From positions 93,352-157,351 of the forward strand of contig JAHZLQ010000008.1 in NCBI GenBank assembly GCA_022599775.1: a stretch of DNA of 64,000 nucleotides, read 5' to 3'. The DNA comes from Gammaproteobacteria bacterium (GTDB lineage: Bacteria > Pseudomonadota > Gammaproteobacteria > Nevskiales > Nevskiaceae). Positions within the stretch are counted from its first letter, which is position 1. The number at the start of each line of letters is the position of its first letter. The notes under the pieces were generated by a model, which was not told where the DNA came from, searched no databases, and saw nothing but the letters and a program-made list of their open reading frames with translations. The position numbers and the translations under genes were made by a program. Below, one piece after another: positions 19,534-53,516 of the stretch.

Positions 19534-19547
19534 TTGATCCGGGTCAA
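19534..19547 (-). promoter_or_regulatory. FNR-type box upstream of hemN
   Basis: TTGATCCGGGTCAA; centre 58 bp upstream of the hemN start. Confidence 0.85.
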
Positions 19548-19572
19548 GCGCAGCCGCATCACGGGCTTGCGA

Positions 19573-19586
19573 TTGATGCCGGTCAA
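19573..19586 (+). promoter_or_regulatory. FNR-type box upstream of the AhpD-like gene
   Basis: TTGATGCCGGTCAA; centre 78 bp upstream of the ATG at 19658. It is 39 bp from the hemN box, so the two divergent promoters each have their own site. Confidence 0.85.
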
Positions 19587-19657
19587 TGCGGCCGCAGCTG
19601 AGGTACCGGAACCTGTTGCGGACCCCACCGTCAGAGCGCTTCAGGACACCCCGCCCC

Positions 19658-20005
19658 ATGAGCAAGAGCTATCGCAGCATCACGCATGACGTTTCCAAGT
19701 CGCTGGCGAAACTTCGCGGGGACATTCCGGAGGTCATGAAAGGCTTCGGTGCCCTGGCGCAGGCCGCCGGCAAGGACGGCGCGCTGGACGCCAAGACCAA
19801 GGAGCTGATCGCGCTGGCCCTGGGCGTGGCGGCGCGCTGCGATGCCTGCATCGGCTTCCATACCCAGGCGCTGATCAAGCACGGCACCACGCGCGCGGAG
19901 TTCGAGGAAACGCTGGGCATGGCGGTCTACATGGGCGGCGGCCCCTCGCTGATGTACGCAGCCGACGCGCTCACCGCCTACGAGGAACTCAGCGCCCCCG
20001 CCTGA
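19658..20005 (+). CDS. Carboxymuconolactone decarboxylase / AhpD-like protein (115 aa)
   Basis: The single CMD domain has the redox CxxC in LGVAARCDACIGFHTQALIKHG, with the downstream His expected in AhpD-type proteins, near residues 65-80. Such proteins act as alkylhydroperoxidases or thiol-disulfide partners. The 115-aa length is normal for one domain. It is the first gene after the divergent hemN and has its own FNR box, so it is probably induced under low oxygen together with hemN and ccoN. The ATG at 19658 gives the canonical MSKSYRSITHDVSKSLAKLRGDIPEVM start. Confidence 0.88.
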   Translation: MSKSYRSITHDVSKSLAKLRGDIPEVMKGFGALAQAAGKDGALDAKTKELIALALGVAARCDACIGFHTQALIKHGTTRAEFEETLGMAVYMGGGPSLMYAADALTAYEELSAPA

Positions 20006-20063
20006 GCATCGGCGCAGGCAACCGTCCTGCACGCCGGAATCACCCAGGGCTCGGGGCTCGGTA

Positions 20064-20077
20064 TTGATCGCCGTCAA
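20064..20077 (+). promoter_or_regulatory. FNR-type box upstream of ccoN
   Basis: TTGATCGCCGTCAA; centre 66 bp upstream of the GTG start at 20137. The in-frame ATG at 20077 begins on the last base of this box, which argues against using that ATG. Confidence 0.88.
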
Positions 20078-51099: not shown

Positions 51100-51377
51100 G
51101 ATGCCGGCTCCGCGCGCAGCCCGCAGCTGCGGGCCAGATGCCAGCCACCAAGCGCGGCCAGCAAGGGCAGCGGGCCATAGTGAACCGCAGAGACCAGCAC
51201 CAGGCCGCTGACGGCGAAACGCAGCACCAGCAGGCCCGCCGCCTGCAAACCCGAACCGCCGCCCCCCGAACCGGCGCCCGTCAGCAGGCGCACATTGCGA
51301 GCCAGGCTGGCGATATGCAGGCTGCCGGCGGCGAAGCCGAGCACGGCGAACAGCACGGTCCAGGCCGCCACGATCAT
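51096..51377 (-). CDS. atpR: N-ATPase accessory protein AtpR (93 aa)
   Basis: Hydrophobic, with three membrane segments (WTVLFAVLGFAAGSLHIASLA, LLVLRFAVSGLVLVSAV, LPLLAALGGWHLARS) and a glycine-rich GAGSGGGGSG loop. The place between atpQ and atpB, its size and polarity match AtpR, a small subunit found only in N-ATPase operons and thought to help assemble the c ring. Overlaps both neighbours by ATGA. Confidence 0.88.
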   Translation of the reverse strand: MIVAAWTVLFAVLGFAAGSLHIASLARNVRLLTGAGSGGGGSGLQAAGLLVLRFAVSGLVLVSAVHYGPLPLLAALGGWHLARSCGLRAEPAS

Positions 51378-51658
51378 GATTCCTGCATCCAGCGCCAGCC
51401 GGACCAGCAGCCGAGACAGATTCCGGCGAACAGCAGCGCGCCGCCGAAGAACACGCCGCTGTCGAACAGTCGGTCGAGCCAGCGTCCCAGGGCGATGCCG
51501 AGCAGTGCCGGCACCACCACCAGCCAGCCCAACACGCCGACGCGCGCGAACTGGCGCGCCAGGCTGGGATCGCCCTCGCGGCGCCAGCGACGCACGCGCT
51601 CGACGCGGCGGCGCACGCCTGCCAGCACTTCGTCCTCGTCCTTGCCTTGCGGATTCAT
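51374..51658 (-). CDS. atpQ: N-ATPase accessory protein AtpQ (94 aa)
   Basis: A charged N-terminus (KDEDEVLAGVRRRVERVRRWRREGDPSLA) precedes two membrane helices (GVLGWLVVVPALLGIALG and GVFFGGALLFAGICLGCWSGWRW). This is the AtpQ layout (AtpI/AtpZ-like) of N-ATPase operons. Start Met 51658 overlaps atpC by 4 bp. Confidence 0.88.
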   Translation of the reverse strand: MNPQGKDEDEVLAGVRRRVERVRRWRREGDPSLARQFARVGVLGWLVVVPALLGIALGRWLDRLFDSGVFFGGALLFAGICLGCWSGWRWMQES

Positions 51659-52059
51659 GGCATGCCGCCGCGGCCGGGATTCAGATAACGCAGAATCTGG
51701 CGGGCGGCGCGCAGCTCCAGCTGCTGCCCACCGACGCGCGCCTGGCGCTCCTCGTCCTCGCGATCCTGAAAGCGCGCCAGCACGGTCGACTCGAGCTGCT
51801 CCAGGTCGTCGTTGATCACGGCTTCGCGCGTGGCCACCGACACCTCGCCCGCACGCACCGTCAGCACGCCGCCGCGTACGGCGCAGTGGTGCGCCTGCCC
51901 TTCGACATCGCACCAGCTGACGACGCCGATCCTGAGCGTGGTCAGAAAATCGACGTGATGCGGCAGCAGGCCGAAGGCACCGCTGTCGTCCTCGGCGCGC
52001 ACCGAGCGCACCTCGGCGTCGACCAGCAATTCGCCGAGACTGGTCAGACGCAGCCTCAT
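51655..52059 (-). CDS. atpC: N-ATPase subunit epsilon (134 aa)
   Basis: The beta-sandwich part reads RLRLTSLGELLVDAEVRSVRAEDDSGAFGLLPHHVDFLTTLRIGVVSW, with the GxFGLLPxHxD signature of epsilon. A C-terminal helical pair (LEQLESTVLARFQDREDEERQARVGGQQLELRAARQILRYL) follows. In N-ATPase operons atpC sits directly after atpD, as here. Confidence 0.92.
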   Translation of the reverse strand: MRLRLTSLGELLVDAEVRSVRAEDDSGAFGLLPHHVDFLTTLRIGVVSWCDVEGQAHHCAVRGGVLTVRAGEVSVATREAVINDDLEQLESTVLARFQDREDEERQARVGGQQLELRAARQILRYLNPGRGGMP

Positions 52060-53468
52060 GCCTCAGCCTCCACGCCGGCGCGCTCACGCACCTCGGCCAG
52101 CGTACCGGCCATGAAGAAGGCTTCTTCCGGCCAATCGTCGGTCTTCCCGGCGAGGATGGTCTCGCAGCCGCTGATGGTATCGCCGAGCTTGACGCTGCGG
52201 CCGGGCTTGCCGGTGAAGGCTTCGGTCACGACGAACGGCTGCGTCAGAAAGCGTTGCAGACGTCGCGCGCGCCCCACGCTGAGCCGGTCCTGCGCGCCGA
52301 GTTCCTCGATGCCCAGCAGGGAGATGATGTCCTGCAGTTCGCGATAGTGGGAGATCACCTCGCGGACCTGTTGCGCCACCGCGTAATGGCGCTCGCCGAC
52401 CAGACTGGGATCGAGCAGCACCGAGCTCGACATCAGCGGATCGACCGCCGGATACATGCCTTCGGCCGCCATCGCGCGGGACAGCATGACCTGGCTTTCG
52501 AGATGGGTCGCGATCGTGGTCACGGCCGGGTCCGTGAAATCGTCGGCCGGCACGTAGACCGCCTCGATCGCCGTGACCGAACGCCCGCCGACCGAGGCGA
52601 TGCGTTCCTGCAAGGCTGCGACCTCGCTGGCCAGCGTCGGCTGGTAACCGACGCGCGACGGCAGGCGTCCGAGCAGGCCCGAGACCTCGGCGCCGGCCTG
52701 GACGAAGCGGAACACGTTGTCCATCAGCAGCAGCACGTTCTGATGCTGCTCGTCGCGGAAATACTCCGCCACCGTCAGCGCCGCCAGGGCGATGCGCCAA
52801 CGCGCGCCCGGCGGCTCGTTCATCTGCCCGAACAGCAGTGCGGTCTTGTCGAGCATGCCGGAGTTACGCATGTCGAGCAGTAGCTCATGGCCTTCGCGCG
52901 AGCGCTCGCCGATGCCGGCGAACACCGAAATGCCCTCGTAGCCGGCGGCCATCGCCTGGATCAGTTCCAGCACCAGCACGGTCTTGCCGACACCGGCACC
53001 GCCGAACATCGCCGCCTTGCTGCCCTGCCCGACCGGCGCCAGCAGGTCGATCACCTTGATGCCGGTCTCGAACAGATCGACGTGTGCGCTGCGCCGATCC
53101 AGCGCCGGCGGCGGACGCTGGATCGGCCATTGCGGTGTCTCGGCGGGCAGTGCCGCGCCGCCGTCGCCGATGCGCCCGCTCACGTCGATCAGCCGGCCGA
53201 GTACATCGGGCCCCACCGGAATGGTCAGTGACCCGCCGCTCGCATGCGCCTGCGCGCCACGGGCGATACCGGCGGTACCGGACAGCGCCACGCAACGCAC
53301 GGTCTCGGGGTCGACGTGGCTCTGCACCTCCACCAGCAGCGGCCGGTCCAGCCCGGAGGCGTGAATTCGCAGCGCCGATTCGAGTGGCGGCAACTCGCCT
53401 GCTCCGAAATGCACGTCGACCACGGCGCCACGCACGGCGCGCACGATCCCGATCGAGGTGTTGTTCAT
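52056..53468 (-). CDS. atpD: N-ATPase subunit beta (470 aa)
   Basis: Catalytic subunit. P-loop AAMFGGAGVGKTVLVLEL, catalytic glutamate region GIGERSREGHELLLDM, and LLLMDNVFRFVQAGAEVSGLLGRLPSRVGYQPTLASEV follow in order. Met 53468 is the start; the frame beyond includes the FNR box. It is the first gene in the order atpD-C-Q-R-B-E-F-A-G, which is the N-ATPase order and differs from the normal atpIBEFHAGDC. An FNR box lies 41 bp upstream. A housekeeping F-ATPase must exist elsewhere. Confidence 0.95.
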   Translation of the reverse strand: MNNTSIGIVRAVRGAVVDVHFGAGELPPLESALRIHASGLDRPLLVEVQSHVDPETVRCVALSGTAGIARGAQAHASGGSLTIPVGPDVLGRLIDVSGRIGDGGAALPAETPQWPIQRPPPALDRRSAHVDLFETGIKVIDLLAPVGQGSKAAMFGGAGVGKTVLVLELIQAMAAGYEGISVFAGIGERSREGHELLLDMRNSGMLDKTALLFGQMNEPPGARWRIALAALTVAEYFRDEQHQNVLLLMDNVFRFVQAGAEVSGLLGRLPSRVGYQPTLASEVAALQERIASVGGRSVTAIEAVYVPADDFTDPAVTTIATHLESQVMLSRAMAAEGMYPAVDPLMSSSVLLDPSLVGERHYAVAQQVREVISHYRELQDIISLLGIEELGAQDRLSVGRARRLQRFLTQPFVVTEAFTGKPGRSVKLGDTISGCETILAGKTDDWPEEAFFMAGTLAEVRERAGVEAEA

Positions 53469-53502
53469 GCGGCCGACTCTACGCGCTTGCATCGCCGGCA
53501 CC

Positions 53503-53516
53503 TTGACCGGCGTCAA
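53503..53516 (-). promoter_or_regulatory. FNR-type box upstream of the N-ATPase operon
   Basis: TTGACCGGCGTCAA; centre 41 bp upstream of the atpD start and 52 bp from the HiPIP stop. Right edge of the FNR-box island. Confidence 0.83.

Follow-up and report, generated by a model that had tools for sequence, protein, structure and literature searches.

FNR is usually regarded as a global regulator with scattered targets, which raises the question of how to read a locus where FNR-type boxes, regulators that might use them and a large set of boxed genes stand together. Here, we analysed a stretch of 64,000 nucleotides (the window) from a Gammaproteobacteria bacterium of the Nevskiaceae (assembly GCA_022599775.1, contig JAHZLQ010000008.1), corresponding to C8:93352-157351 and reaching the contig end, in a genome of 4,271,282 bases on 78 contigs that is 99.2% complete. 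The window holds a 34-kb island (19534-53516) of boxed genes, and the regulator genes to its left (14939-18021) are part of the same unit. We propose that 14939-53516 encodes a self-contained two-layer oxygen switch, in which the sensor pair FixL and FixJ would induce two iron-sulphur (Fe-S) regulators of the FNR type, which in turn would switch on a survival gene set. From the sequence, we put the probability of this prediction at roughly 85%.

An initial annotation had listed 15 sites of the form TTGAN6TCAA in the island. We recovered all of them at the same coordinates, 12 as exact matches and three (35475, 36167 and 45842) with one mismatch. Its claim that sites are absent outside the island held for exact sites, since all 12 in the window fall within 19534-53516, and failed for one-mismatch look-alikes, of which seven lie at 1-19.5 kb and one past 53.5 kb; further look-alikes occur between the listed sites. 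Dinucleotide-shuffled windows contained 0.27 exact sites on average and two at most (100 shuffles). Genome-wide, the pattern TTGAYN4RTCAA gave 24 matches against five for the reversed-pattern control, and 12 of the 24 were in the island. The annotation had proposed comparing this density with the rest of the genome; run as pattern counts rather than with a weight matrix, the comparison found no equal density elsewhere. Allowing one mismatch made the genome search too noisy for use (355 sites, control 142). A chance origin of the cluster was rejected on the shuffles, the genome-wide pattern counts and the full-signature counts given below. We assigned the boxes to 16 promoters, with centre-to-start distances of 41.5 to 100.5 bp instead of the 41 to 97 bp first reported. 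Boxes 42392 and 42407 are now given separately to glgP and the nitroreductase gene. A box of their own is missing from the transposase-like gene (46473-47009) and from a DUF2238 gene (31535-32221), which possibly belongs to the adh unit.

The promoters share a common geometry. A -10-like NANNNT element lies 28-30 bp from the box centre in 16/16 assigned promoters, exactly at 29 in 13 of them, and between 8 and 79 every remaining offset has it in two promoters at most. On the side away from the gene, NANNNT was present in 0/14 at 28 or 29 and in 1/14 at 30. On the gene side, the box is followed by TG in 12/16 promoters, against 1/14 on the opposite side. In class II activation by FNR, the box is centred at -41.5 and the -10 element stands at the matching distance. 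A -10 hexamer starting 29 bp from the box centre would place the transcript start about 41.5 bp from the centre, which is the class II position, and with starts so predicted all 16 island promoters match class II geometry. An exact genome-wide search for box, TG, spacer and -10 element returned 12 matches, 10 of them in the island (control 0), and 20 matches with up to one mismatch, 12 of them in the island. In the loci of relatives (the same-genus genome G001 and other genera), each box was read in both directions, and the element was found at 29 in 44 of the resulting 102 oriented exact boxes, compared with 0-10 at other offsets. At glgP (ATG at 42357) and atpD (53468), the box centre is exactly 41.5 bp from the ATG, so that class II activation would yield leaderless mRNAs. 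The glgP reading frame of G059 also begins near its box, at about 31 bp, or at 43 bp if the second Met is used.

We then compared the island with G001, where most of the island genes are found in unchanged order, spread over two contigs. It is without the catalase gene and the transposase-like gene, and the phosphoribosyltransferase gene is not on the stretches fetched; the DUF2238-ppsA join is not visible, both contigs ending there. Among the 15 island sites, 14 are present in G001, and the exception is the catalase box, whose matching stretch there has no such catalase. Intergenic changes fell on 0/112 positions of the box core, 8/84 of the spacer and 236/1485 elsewhere, a count in which the small gene downstream of fnrB is covered by the stretch 38038-38538. 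A second count, made per promoter, gave 0/120 for the core (the shared box counted twice), 1/28 for A2 and T6 of the -10 element and 328/1720 for the surroundings. The box of the phosphoribosyltransferase gene is kept, and its -10 element falls past the contig end. At the end of G001 contig C26 (L095), a box with TG and -10 element stands ahead of a short reading frame resembling a universal stress protein (Usp); because the last bases of L095 also occur in the box that ends C10, this contig end may carry an incomplete copy of the usp promoter.

The regulators that could read these boxes are encoded in and beside the island. The gene fnrB (37334-38038, plus strand) lies within the 34 kb and fnrA (14939-15622, minus strand) 4 kb to its left. 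FnrA (227 amino acids; Pfam Crp HTH and cNMP) has an N-terminal CX2CX5C motif and a fourth Cys, and all four cysteines match those of the FNR structure 9qlt in alignment. FnrB (234 amino acids), identified by homology search and structure alignment, also has four. E-x-x-S-R is the motif of the FNR recognition helix. Both proteins carry ETVSR, aligned to ETISR of FNR structures, together with the four cysteine ligands by which FNR is defined (PMC2908626; this and the papers cited below are drawn on as excerpts). A genome search with FnrB returned both FNR homologues and, beyond them, a single distant CRP-like protein (E 7.9e-4). The gene following fnrB (38050-38457, plus strand) encodes a small protein of no Pfam family that is 88% identical in G001.

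Upstream of fnrA on the minus strand stand fixL (16870-18021), encoding a PAS domain and a histidine kinase by Pfam, and fixJ (16244-16873), encoding a receiver and a LuxR-type helix-turn-helix (Response_reg and GerE). Alignment of the FixL PAS domain to the FixL haem PAS structures 1d06 and 1dp6 showed conservation of a His and an Arg, which we take to be the haem ligand and the oxygen-binding residue, respectively. A single-domain receiver (15735-16175, minus strand; Response_reg), possibly a FixT-like brake, lies between fixJ and fnrA; a receiver-only gene has the same place in G001, G008 and G028, and follows fixJ on a Phenylobacterium plasmid. From gene order and strand, hemN, fixL, fixJ, the receiver gene and fnrA likely form one unit with hemN first.

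How would the two layers be connected? Published FixJ motifs are GTAGTTTCCC and GTAMGTAG, plus a CSNAATWT element (PMC4999443). We found GTAGTTTCCC or GTAMGTAG upstream of both fnr genes: fnrA is preceded by the tandem FixJ-type boxes TACGTAGTTTCC and TACGTGGTTTCC (15716-15741, minus strand), which contain the published motifs, and fnrB by TACGTAGTTCCC (37238-37249, plus strand), which differs from GTAGTTTCCC at one position and is conserved in G001 (L055). Behind the tandem boxes, and likewise behind TACGTAGTTCCC, stand CCGAATRG and a -10-like element. The tandem arrangement at fnrA also occurs in G001, and a single box in G008, G026 and G028. Genome-wide, TACGTRSTTYCC gave six matches (control 1), three of them in this region, and the stricter TACGTAGTTYCC gave two, both at fnr genes. 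Moreover, TACGTRSTTYCC is found upstream of 10 of the 15 other family FNR genes read.

DNR binds the same anaerobox as FixK and FnrN. The sites might thus be bound by another CRP/FNR member, such as a nitric oxide-responsive DNR or a FixK-like protein without an Fe-S cluster, and the second-layer signal would then not be oxygen; that FixK and FnrN share the anaerobox is on record (PMC7888657). Against this, the genome search with FnrB turned up no regulators besides the two four-Cys FNRs and the distant CRP-like protein. As the same query matches a DNR structure (2.4e-8) and FixK2 (1.7e-14), close DNR or FixK relatives should have been seen. DNR and FixK were accordingly rejected as users of the boxes, and we regard this alternative as very improbable.

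In the oxygen switch that we favour, loss of oxygen from the FixL haem would lead FixL to phosphorylate FixJ, and FixJ would bind its boxes and cause transcription of fnrA and fnrB. Only when oxygen is low would both FNRs retain their oxygen-labile [4Fe-4S] clusters; as dimers they would then occupy TTGAN6TCAA at centre position -41.5, and RNA polymerase would be recruited to the 16 promoters, giving activation rather than repression. The predicted products include a high-affinity cbb3 oxidase, enzymes of oxygen-independent haem synthesis, Usp, catalase, an EncFtn-like ferritin and a second ATPase, as well as glycogen and pyruvate-to-phosphoenolpyruvate enzymes. Boxes at hemN, by read-through into fixL-fixJ-receiver-fnrA, and at usp-fnrB could add positive feedback.

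Several observations weigh against this reading. The likely FNR regulon, as predicted, lies mostly but not wholly in the island. Among the 12 exact sites elsewhere in the genome, six are within predicted genes, and six, read in one direction or both, have NANNNT 28-30 bp away, compared with 12/12 exact island sites; the promoter-like ones include those of a Usp/cytochrome c pair, an OmpW gene and a fatty-acid desaturase gene. When TG is left out of the signature and the offset set at exactly 29, the island has 11 of 17 genome promoters. The NANNNT form was picked after a first line-up of the promoters, at which point boxes 42392 and 42407 were also re-paired; their first pairing, for which the -10 test had failed at both, was dropped and the swapped pairing adopted. 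Because of these choices, the loci of relatives and the genome signature search are the less dependent checks. We also moved the start codons of the dksA-like and phosphoribosyltransferase genes. At the EncFtn promoter, G001 has AAACTC at the aligned hexamer and thus no -10 element in register. As for the first layer, FixL scored 331 bits against a cut-off of 850 with the rhizobial FixL model NF041777 (model 485 positions, protein 383 amino acids). Half of the six genome matches of TACGTRSTTYCC lie away from fnr genes, and an exact TACGTRSTTYCC is missing at five of the 15 family FNR genes (G002, G007, G053, G063 and one of the two of G009).

The separate parts have known counterparts. In the FixLJ-FixK systems of rhizobia and Burkholderia dolosa, a haem FixL, FixJ, the FixJ motif and a CRP/FNR target are found as here (PMC4999443, PMC13327599, PMC5234846). 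Unlike those systems, the second layer here retains all four Fe-S cysteines, which would give two successive steps of oxygen sensing; FixJ-type boxes are present at two genes of this kind. The hFixL-FxkR-FixK-FnrN pathway of Rhizobium leguminosarum also has two serial oxygen sensors with an Fe-S FNR, but FxkR and FixK stand in between, whereas here the FixJ-type boxes are directly before the FNR genes (PMC7888657). The initial annotation had likened the island to the low-oxygen-activated (lxa) locus of Burkholderia cenocepacia. That locus comprises 50 contiguous genes induced by low oxygen, which encode six Usp together with metabolic, electron-transfer and regulatory proteins; BCAM0049 is its proposed oxygen-sensing regulator, and the B. 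dolosa homologue of BCAM0049, FixK, is under FixLJ (PMC6127331, PMC9733578). By locus number, BCAM0049 and the FixLJ homologues BCAL2210/2211 are outside lxa, whereas the FNRs and FixLJ are inside or beside the island. In addition, the island has cbb3, glycogen, EncFtn and ATPase genes, and the likeness is one of analogous content, compared by description only. Within these bounds, the suggestion of an lxa-like island under predicted low-oxygen FNR control is backed by the promoter geometry, the footprints, the genome-wide concentration and the two four-Cys FNRs.

In Pseudomonas, the anr-hemN-cco neighbourhood places an FNR-type gene beside hemN and cbb3 genes; to our knowledge, it has neither FixLJ nor this cargo. 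The mycobacterial DosR dormancy regulon uses a different sensor and a different DNA box from FNR. Like the island, it is a Usp-rich hypoxia set, with 10 Usp among 48 genes (PMC6127331). Overall, the parts are known, and what is new is a variation in packaging and cargo: sensor, both FNRs and cargo stand together, with the Fe-S ligands kept in the second layer. A term search of one open library returned no paper for a clustered FNR island, which leaves its absence from print unproven.

The cargo is described here from left to right; each box is on the strand of its gene, and the -10 offset is 29 unless given. The hemN gene (18100-19482, minus; TIGR00538 above cut-off) has its box at 19534-19547 (-10 CAGGCT). 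On the plus strand follow the box at 19573-19586 (GAACCT) of a gene for an AhpD-like carboxymuconolactone decarboxylase-fold protein (19658-20005; PF02627), the box at 20064-20077 (GACACT) of the cbb3 oxidase operon (20137-28131), and the box at 28167-28180 (CAGGTT) of the catalase gene (28238-29680; PF00199, PF06628). The cbb3 operon consists of ccoN-O-Q-P, ccoG, ccoH, ccoI, ccoS and a gene for a DsbD-like membrane protein (DsbD_2); ccoN is supported by TIGR00780, and the other cco names are presumed from order and sequence. One box (30133-30146) is common to a dksA-like gene (29739-30077, minus; zf-dskA_traR on the C-terminal part, start at ATG 30077) and the zinc alcohol dehydrogenase gene adh (30234-31283, plus; PF08240, PF00107), with a -10 element at 29 on either side.

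Three minus-strand genes follow. A phosphoribosyltransferase-fold protein is encoded at 32237-32917 (PF00156 matched within a shorter gene model, 32237-32737, which we extended to ATG 32917; box 32975-32988, CAAGCT), ppsA for phosphoenolpyruvate synthase at 33007-35418 (PPDK_N, PEP-utilizers; one-mismatch box 35475-35488, GAAGCT), and a flavodoxin-fold reductase at 35523-36107 (PF02525; one-mismatch box 36167-36180, TAGGCT at 28). The plus-strand box at 36198-36211 (GAGTTT) serves usp-fnrB, and the tandem Usp (36305-37198) has PF00582 in two stretches. A glgC-like ADP-glucose pyrophosphorylase gene (38538-39827, plus; PF00483, PF24894), its substrate presumed, has its box at 38454-38467 (TAGGAT). 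The alpha-glucan phosphorylase gene glgP (39877-42357, minus; DUF3417 and Phosphorylase, TIGR02094 above cut-off), with box 42392-42405 and CACAAT at 30, is next to the nitroreductase gene (42496-43074, plus; PF00881), with box 42407-42420 and AAAGCT. Then come an ADP-forming acyl-CoA synthetase fused to GNAT (43100-45772, minus; ATP-grasp_5, Succ_CoA_lig, Acetyltransf_1; one-mismatch box 45842-45855, TACCCT), an EncFtn-like ferritin of 101 amino acids (45963-46268, plus; PF22277, 5.6e-40; box 45883-45896, CAGACT) and the ATPase operon (47102-53468, minus; box 53503-53516, TAGAGT at 28). The set gives a compact list of genes that would be kept for oxygen starvation, and it places a tail-less EncFtn and an ATPase of N-type order under predicted oxygen control.

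Does the gathering recur in other genomes? A search with FnrB hit 49 of the 58 family genomes (our own counted), in many cases with a distant match. Boxes and a large part of the core FixL-FixJ-FNR-HemN-cco-Usp recur at loci in several other genera. At the G011 locus, cco genes and exact boxes are both missing; at that of G002, FNR is the only core member. HemN, FixL, FixJ and CcoN of G008, G026 and G028 are 54-88% identical, in partly different order. We counted distinct full-signature boxes within 50 kb and compared them with 5000 random placements in our own genome and 10 relatives, after four of 14 genomes with no match (G004, G060), one (G015) or two (G012) had been dropped. The random placements never reached the observed clustering in our genome (G000, 10/16), G005 (14/15, in 41 kb), G007 (5/8), G053 (8/13), G002 (6/10) and G059 (7/23). 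Clustering was weak in G009 (4/13; reached in 30/5000) and G011 (3/9; 121/5000), and not beyond random in G008 (2/5; 1194/5000), G026 (2/11; 3444/5000) and G010 (1/3; 5000/5000). Here and in G005 and G007, most full signatures have an FNR gene and a FixLJ pair as neighbours; the G053 cluster is on contig C3 and its best FNR gene on C2. The cargo comprises phosphoketolase, BON, PAS-GGDEF-EAL, L,D-transpeptidase and Usp in G005, and Cpn60, BON, the S30AE ribosome-binding family and flavodoxin in G053; G059 has glucan phosphorylase, nitroreductase and ppsA in common with the island. The G002 cluster, with a long reading frame that we take from its start to be nitrate reductase, may be a different, respiratory cluster.

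These comparisons bear on whether the gathering was selected. The boxes could be real and their clustering merely an ordinary cbb3/hemN/fnr neighbourhood with hitchhikers, as the presence of the FixL-FixJ-FNR-HemN-cco core in most family loci read, its resemblance to the Pseudomonas neighbourhood and the three of 10 relatives with no clustering beyond random, besides the two weak ones, would have it. However, 13/16 promoters serve units other than hemN, ccoN and usp-fnrB, and six genomes with partly different cargo show clustering unmatched by random placement, which makes this explanation rather unlikely in our view. Tentatively, and at somewhat less than even odds, we suggest that in part of the family the whole oxygen-starvation regulon, in which a haem sensor acts on Fe-S sensors in series, has been collected as a modular cassette whose boxed cargo comes and goes. 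If so, a scattered global FNR regulon would have become a single-locus, transplantable programme for hypoxia survival, and the island offers a test case for whether regulon clustering reflects co-transfer, local regulator concentration or cargo exchange.

Plasmids raise a further explanation, in which a plasmid-like or mobile low-oxygen island was acquired as a block and the boxes arrived with the DNA, perhaps being used only partly by the host. There were 142 plasmid records with a ppsA match, and four among the 25 matches listed were read. Exact boxes numbered four in a Cupriavidus plasmid (L099), two without -10 elements in one of Methylocystis (L100), two in a Phenylobacterium zucineum plasmid (L101) and 10 in Paraburkholderia phytofirmans pOLGA1 (L102). 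The pOLGA1 boxes share a 42-kb region with ppsA, Usp and BON genes, with TANNNT at offset 28 in five and at 29 in one; L101, typed as conjugative, carries FixL-FixJ-receiver, an FNR-like gene, phosphoketolase and ppsA. An EncFtn search among plasmids gave five distant records. Acquisition as a block would fit the box-bearing ppsA regions of pOLGA1 and the Phenylobacterium plasmid, and also the Y1/IS200-like transposase gene within the island (46473-47009, plus strand), which is missing from the corresponding 175-bp gap of G001. Against it stand the unchanged box cores amid varying surroundings in G001, and the divergence and partly different order of the G008, G026 and G028 loci are what long residence would predict. 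Rfam and tRNA searches of the window returned no match and no tRNA, and Pfam scans of 30 of the window's proteins revealed no integrase. We therefore consider such a block transfer quite unlikely.

Two cargo units deserve separate description. The EncFtn-like protein, whose nearest solved relative is 3k6c, has no C-terminal targeting tail, and the genome has no match to PF04454, the only encapsulin shell family searched. On these two grounds, an encapsulated ferritin was rejected, and the protein may work unenclosed. It resembles the s-FLP class, and a tail-less EncFtn without a PF04454 partner bears on the s-FLP question described as open in PMC11202242.

The ATPase operon has the gene order atpD-C-Q-R-B-E-F-A-G. 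The beta and gamma subunits were identified by Pfam, the c subunit by PDB search and atpQ by TIGR02230 (58.5 bits, cut-off 46.7); atpR scored 21.5 against 55.5 with TIGR03165, and the remaining subunit names are presumed from gene order. The beta subunit met the general atpD model TIGR01039 and scored 589 bits with the alternate F1F0 model TIGR03305 (cut-off 752); a second beta subunit, 50% identical, is encoded elsewhere in the genome. N-type ATPases are described as second operons with atpD-atpC first, then atpQ and atpR (PMC5376962), and the island operon has this order. The initial annotation had called the enzyme sodium-type. The order is N-type, but the c subunit carries a two-carboxylate site. 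The same site is present in the N-ATPase of Burkholderia pseudomallei, for which measurements showed proton coupling (PMC5376962); a sodium label was thus not accepted as settled. In our open-literature search, N-ATPase, FNR and anaerobic occurred together only in Vagococcus genome work, and absence from print is likewise unproven.

Adjoining the island, the genes at 53569-58278 (minus strand) encode a HiPIP, a two-haem cytochrome c, an MtrB/PioB porin (above its Pfam cut-off, slightly below that of TIGR03509) and a decahaem cytochrome with 10 CXXCH motifs. They resemble a Pio/Mtr outer-membrane electron conduit, have no exact box and are conserved in G001. In L027, left of the window, the genes at 8111-11582 are presumably, from their sequence starts, 2-hydroxyacyl-CoA dehydratase components and an activator. 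Besides the HiPIP gene of the conduit (53569-53901, minus strand), the one of the two covered by the Pfam scan, there is a HiPIP-like gene at 11673-12005, also on the minus strand; the two match the same G001 gene, with 69% identity for 11673-12005 and 94% for 53569-53901.

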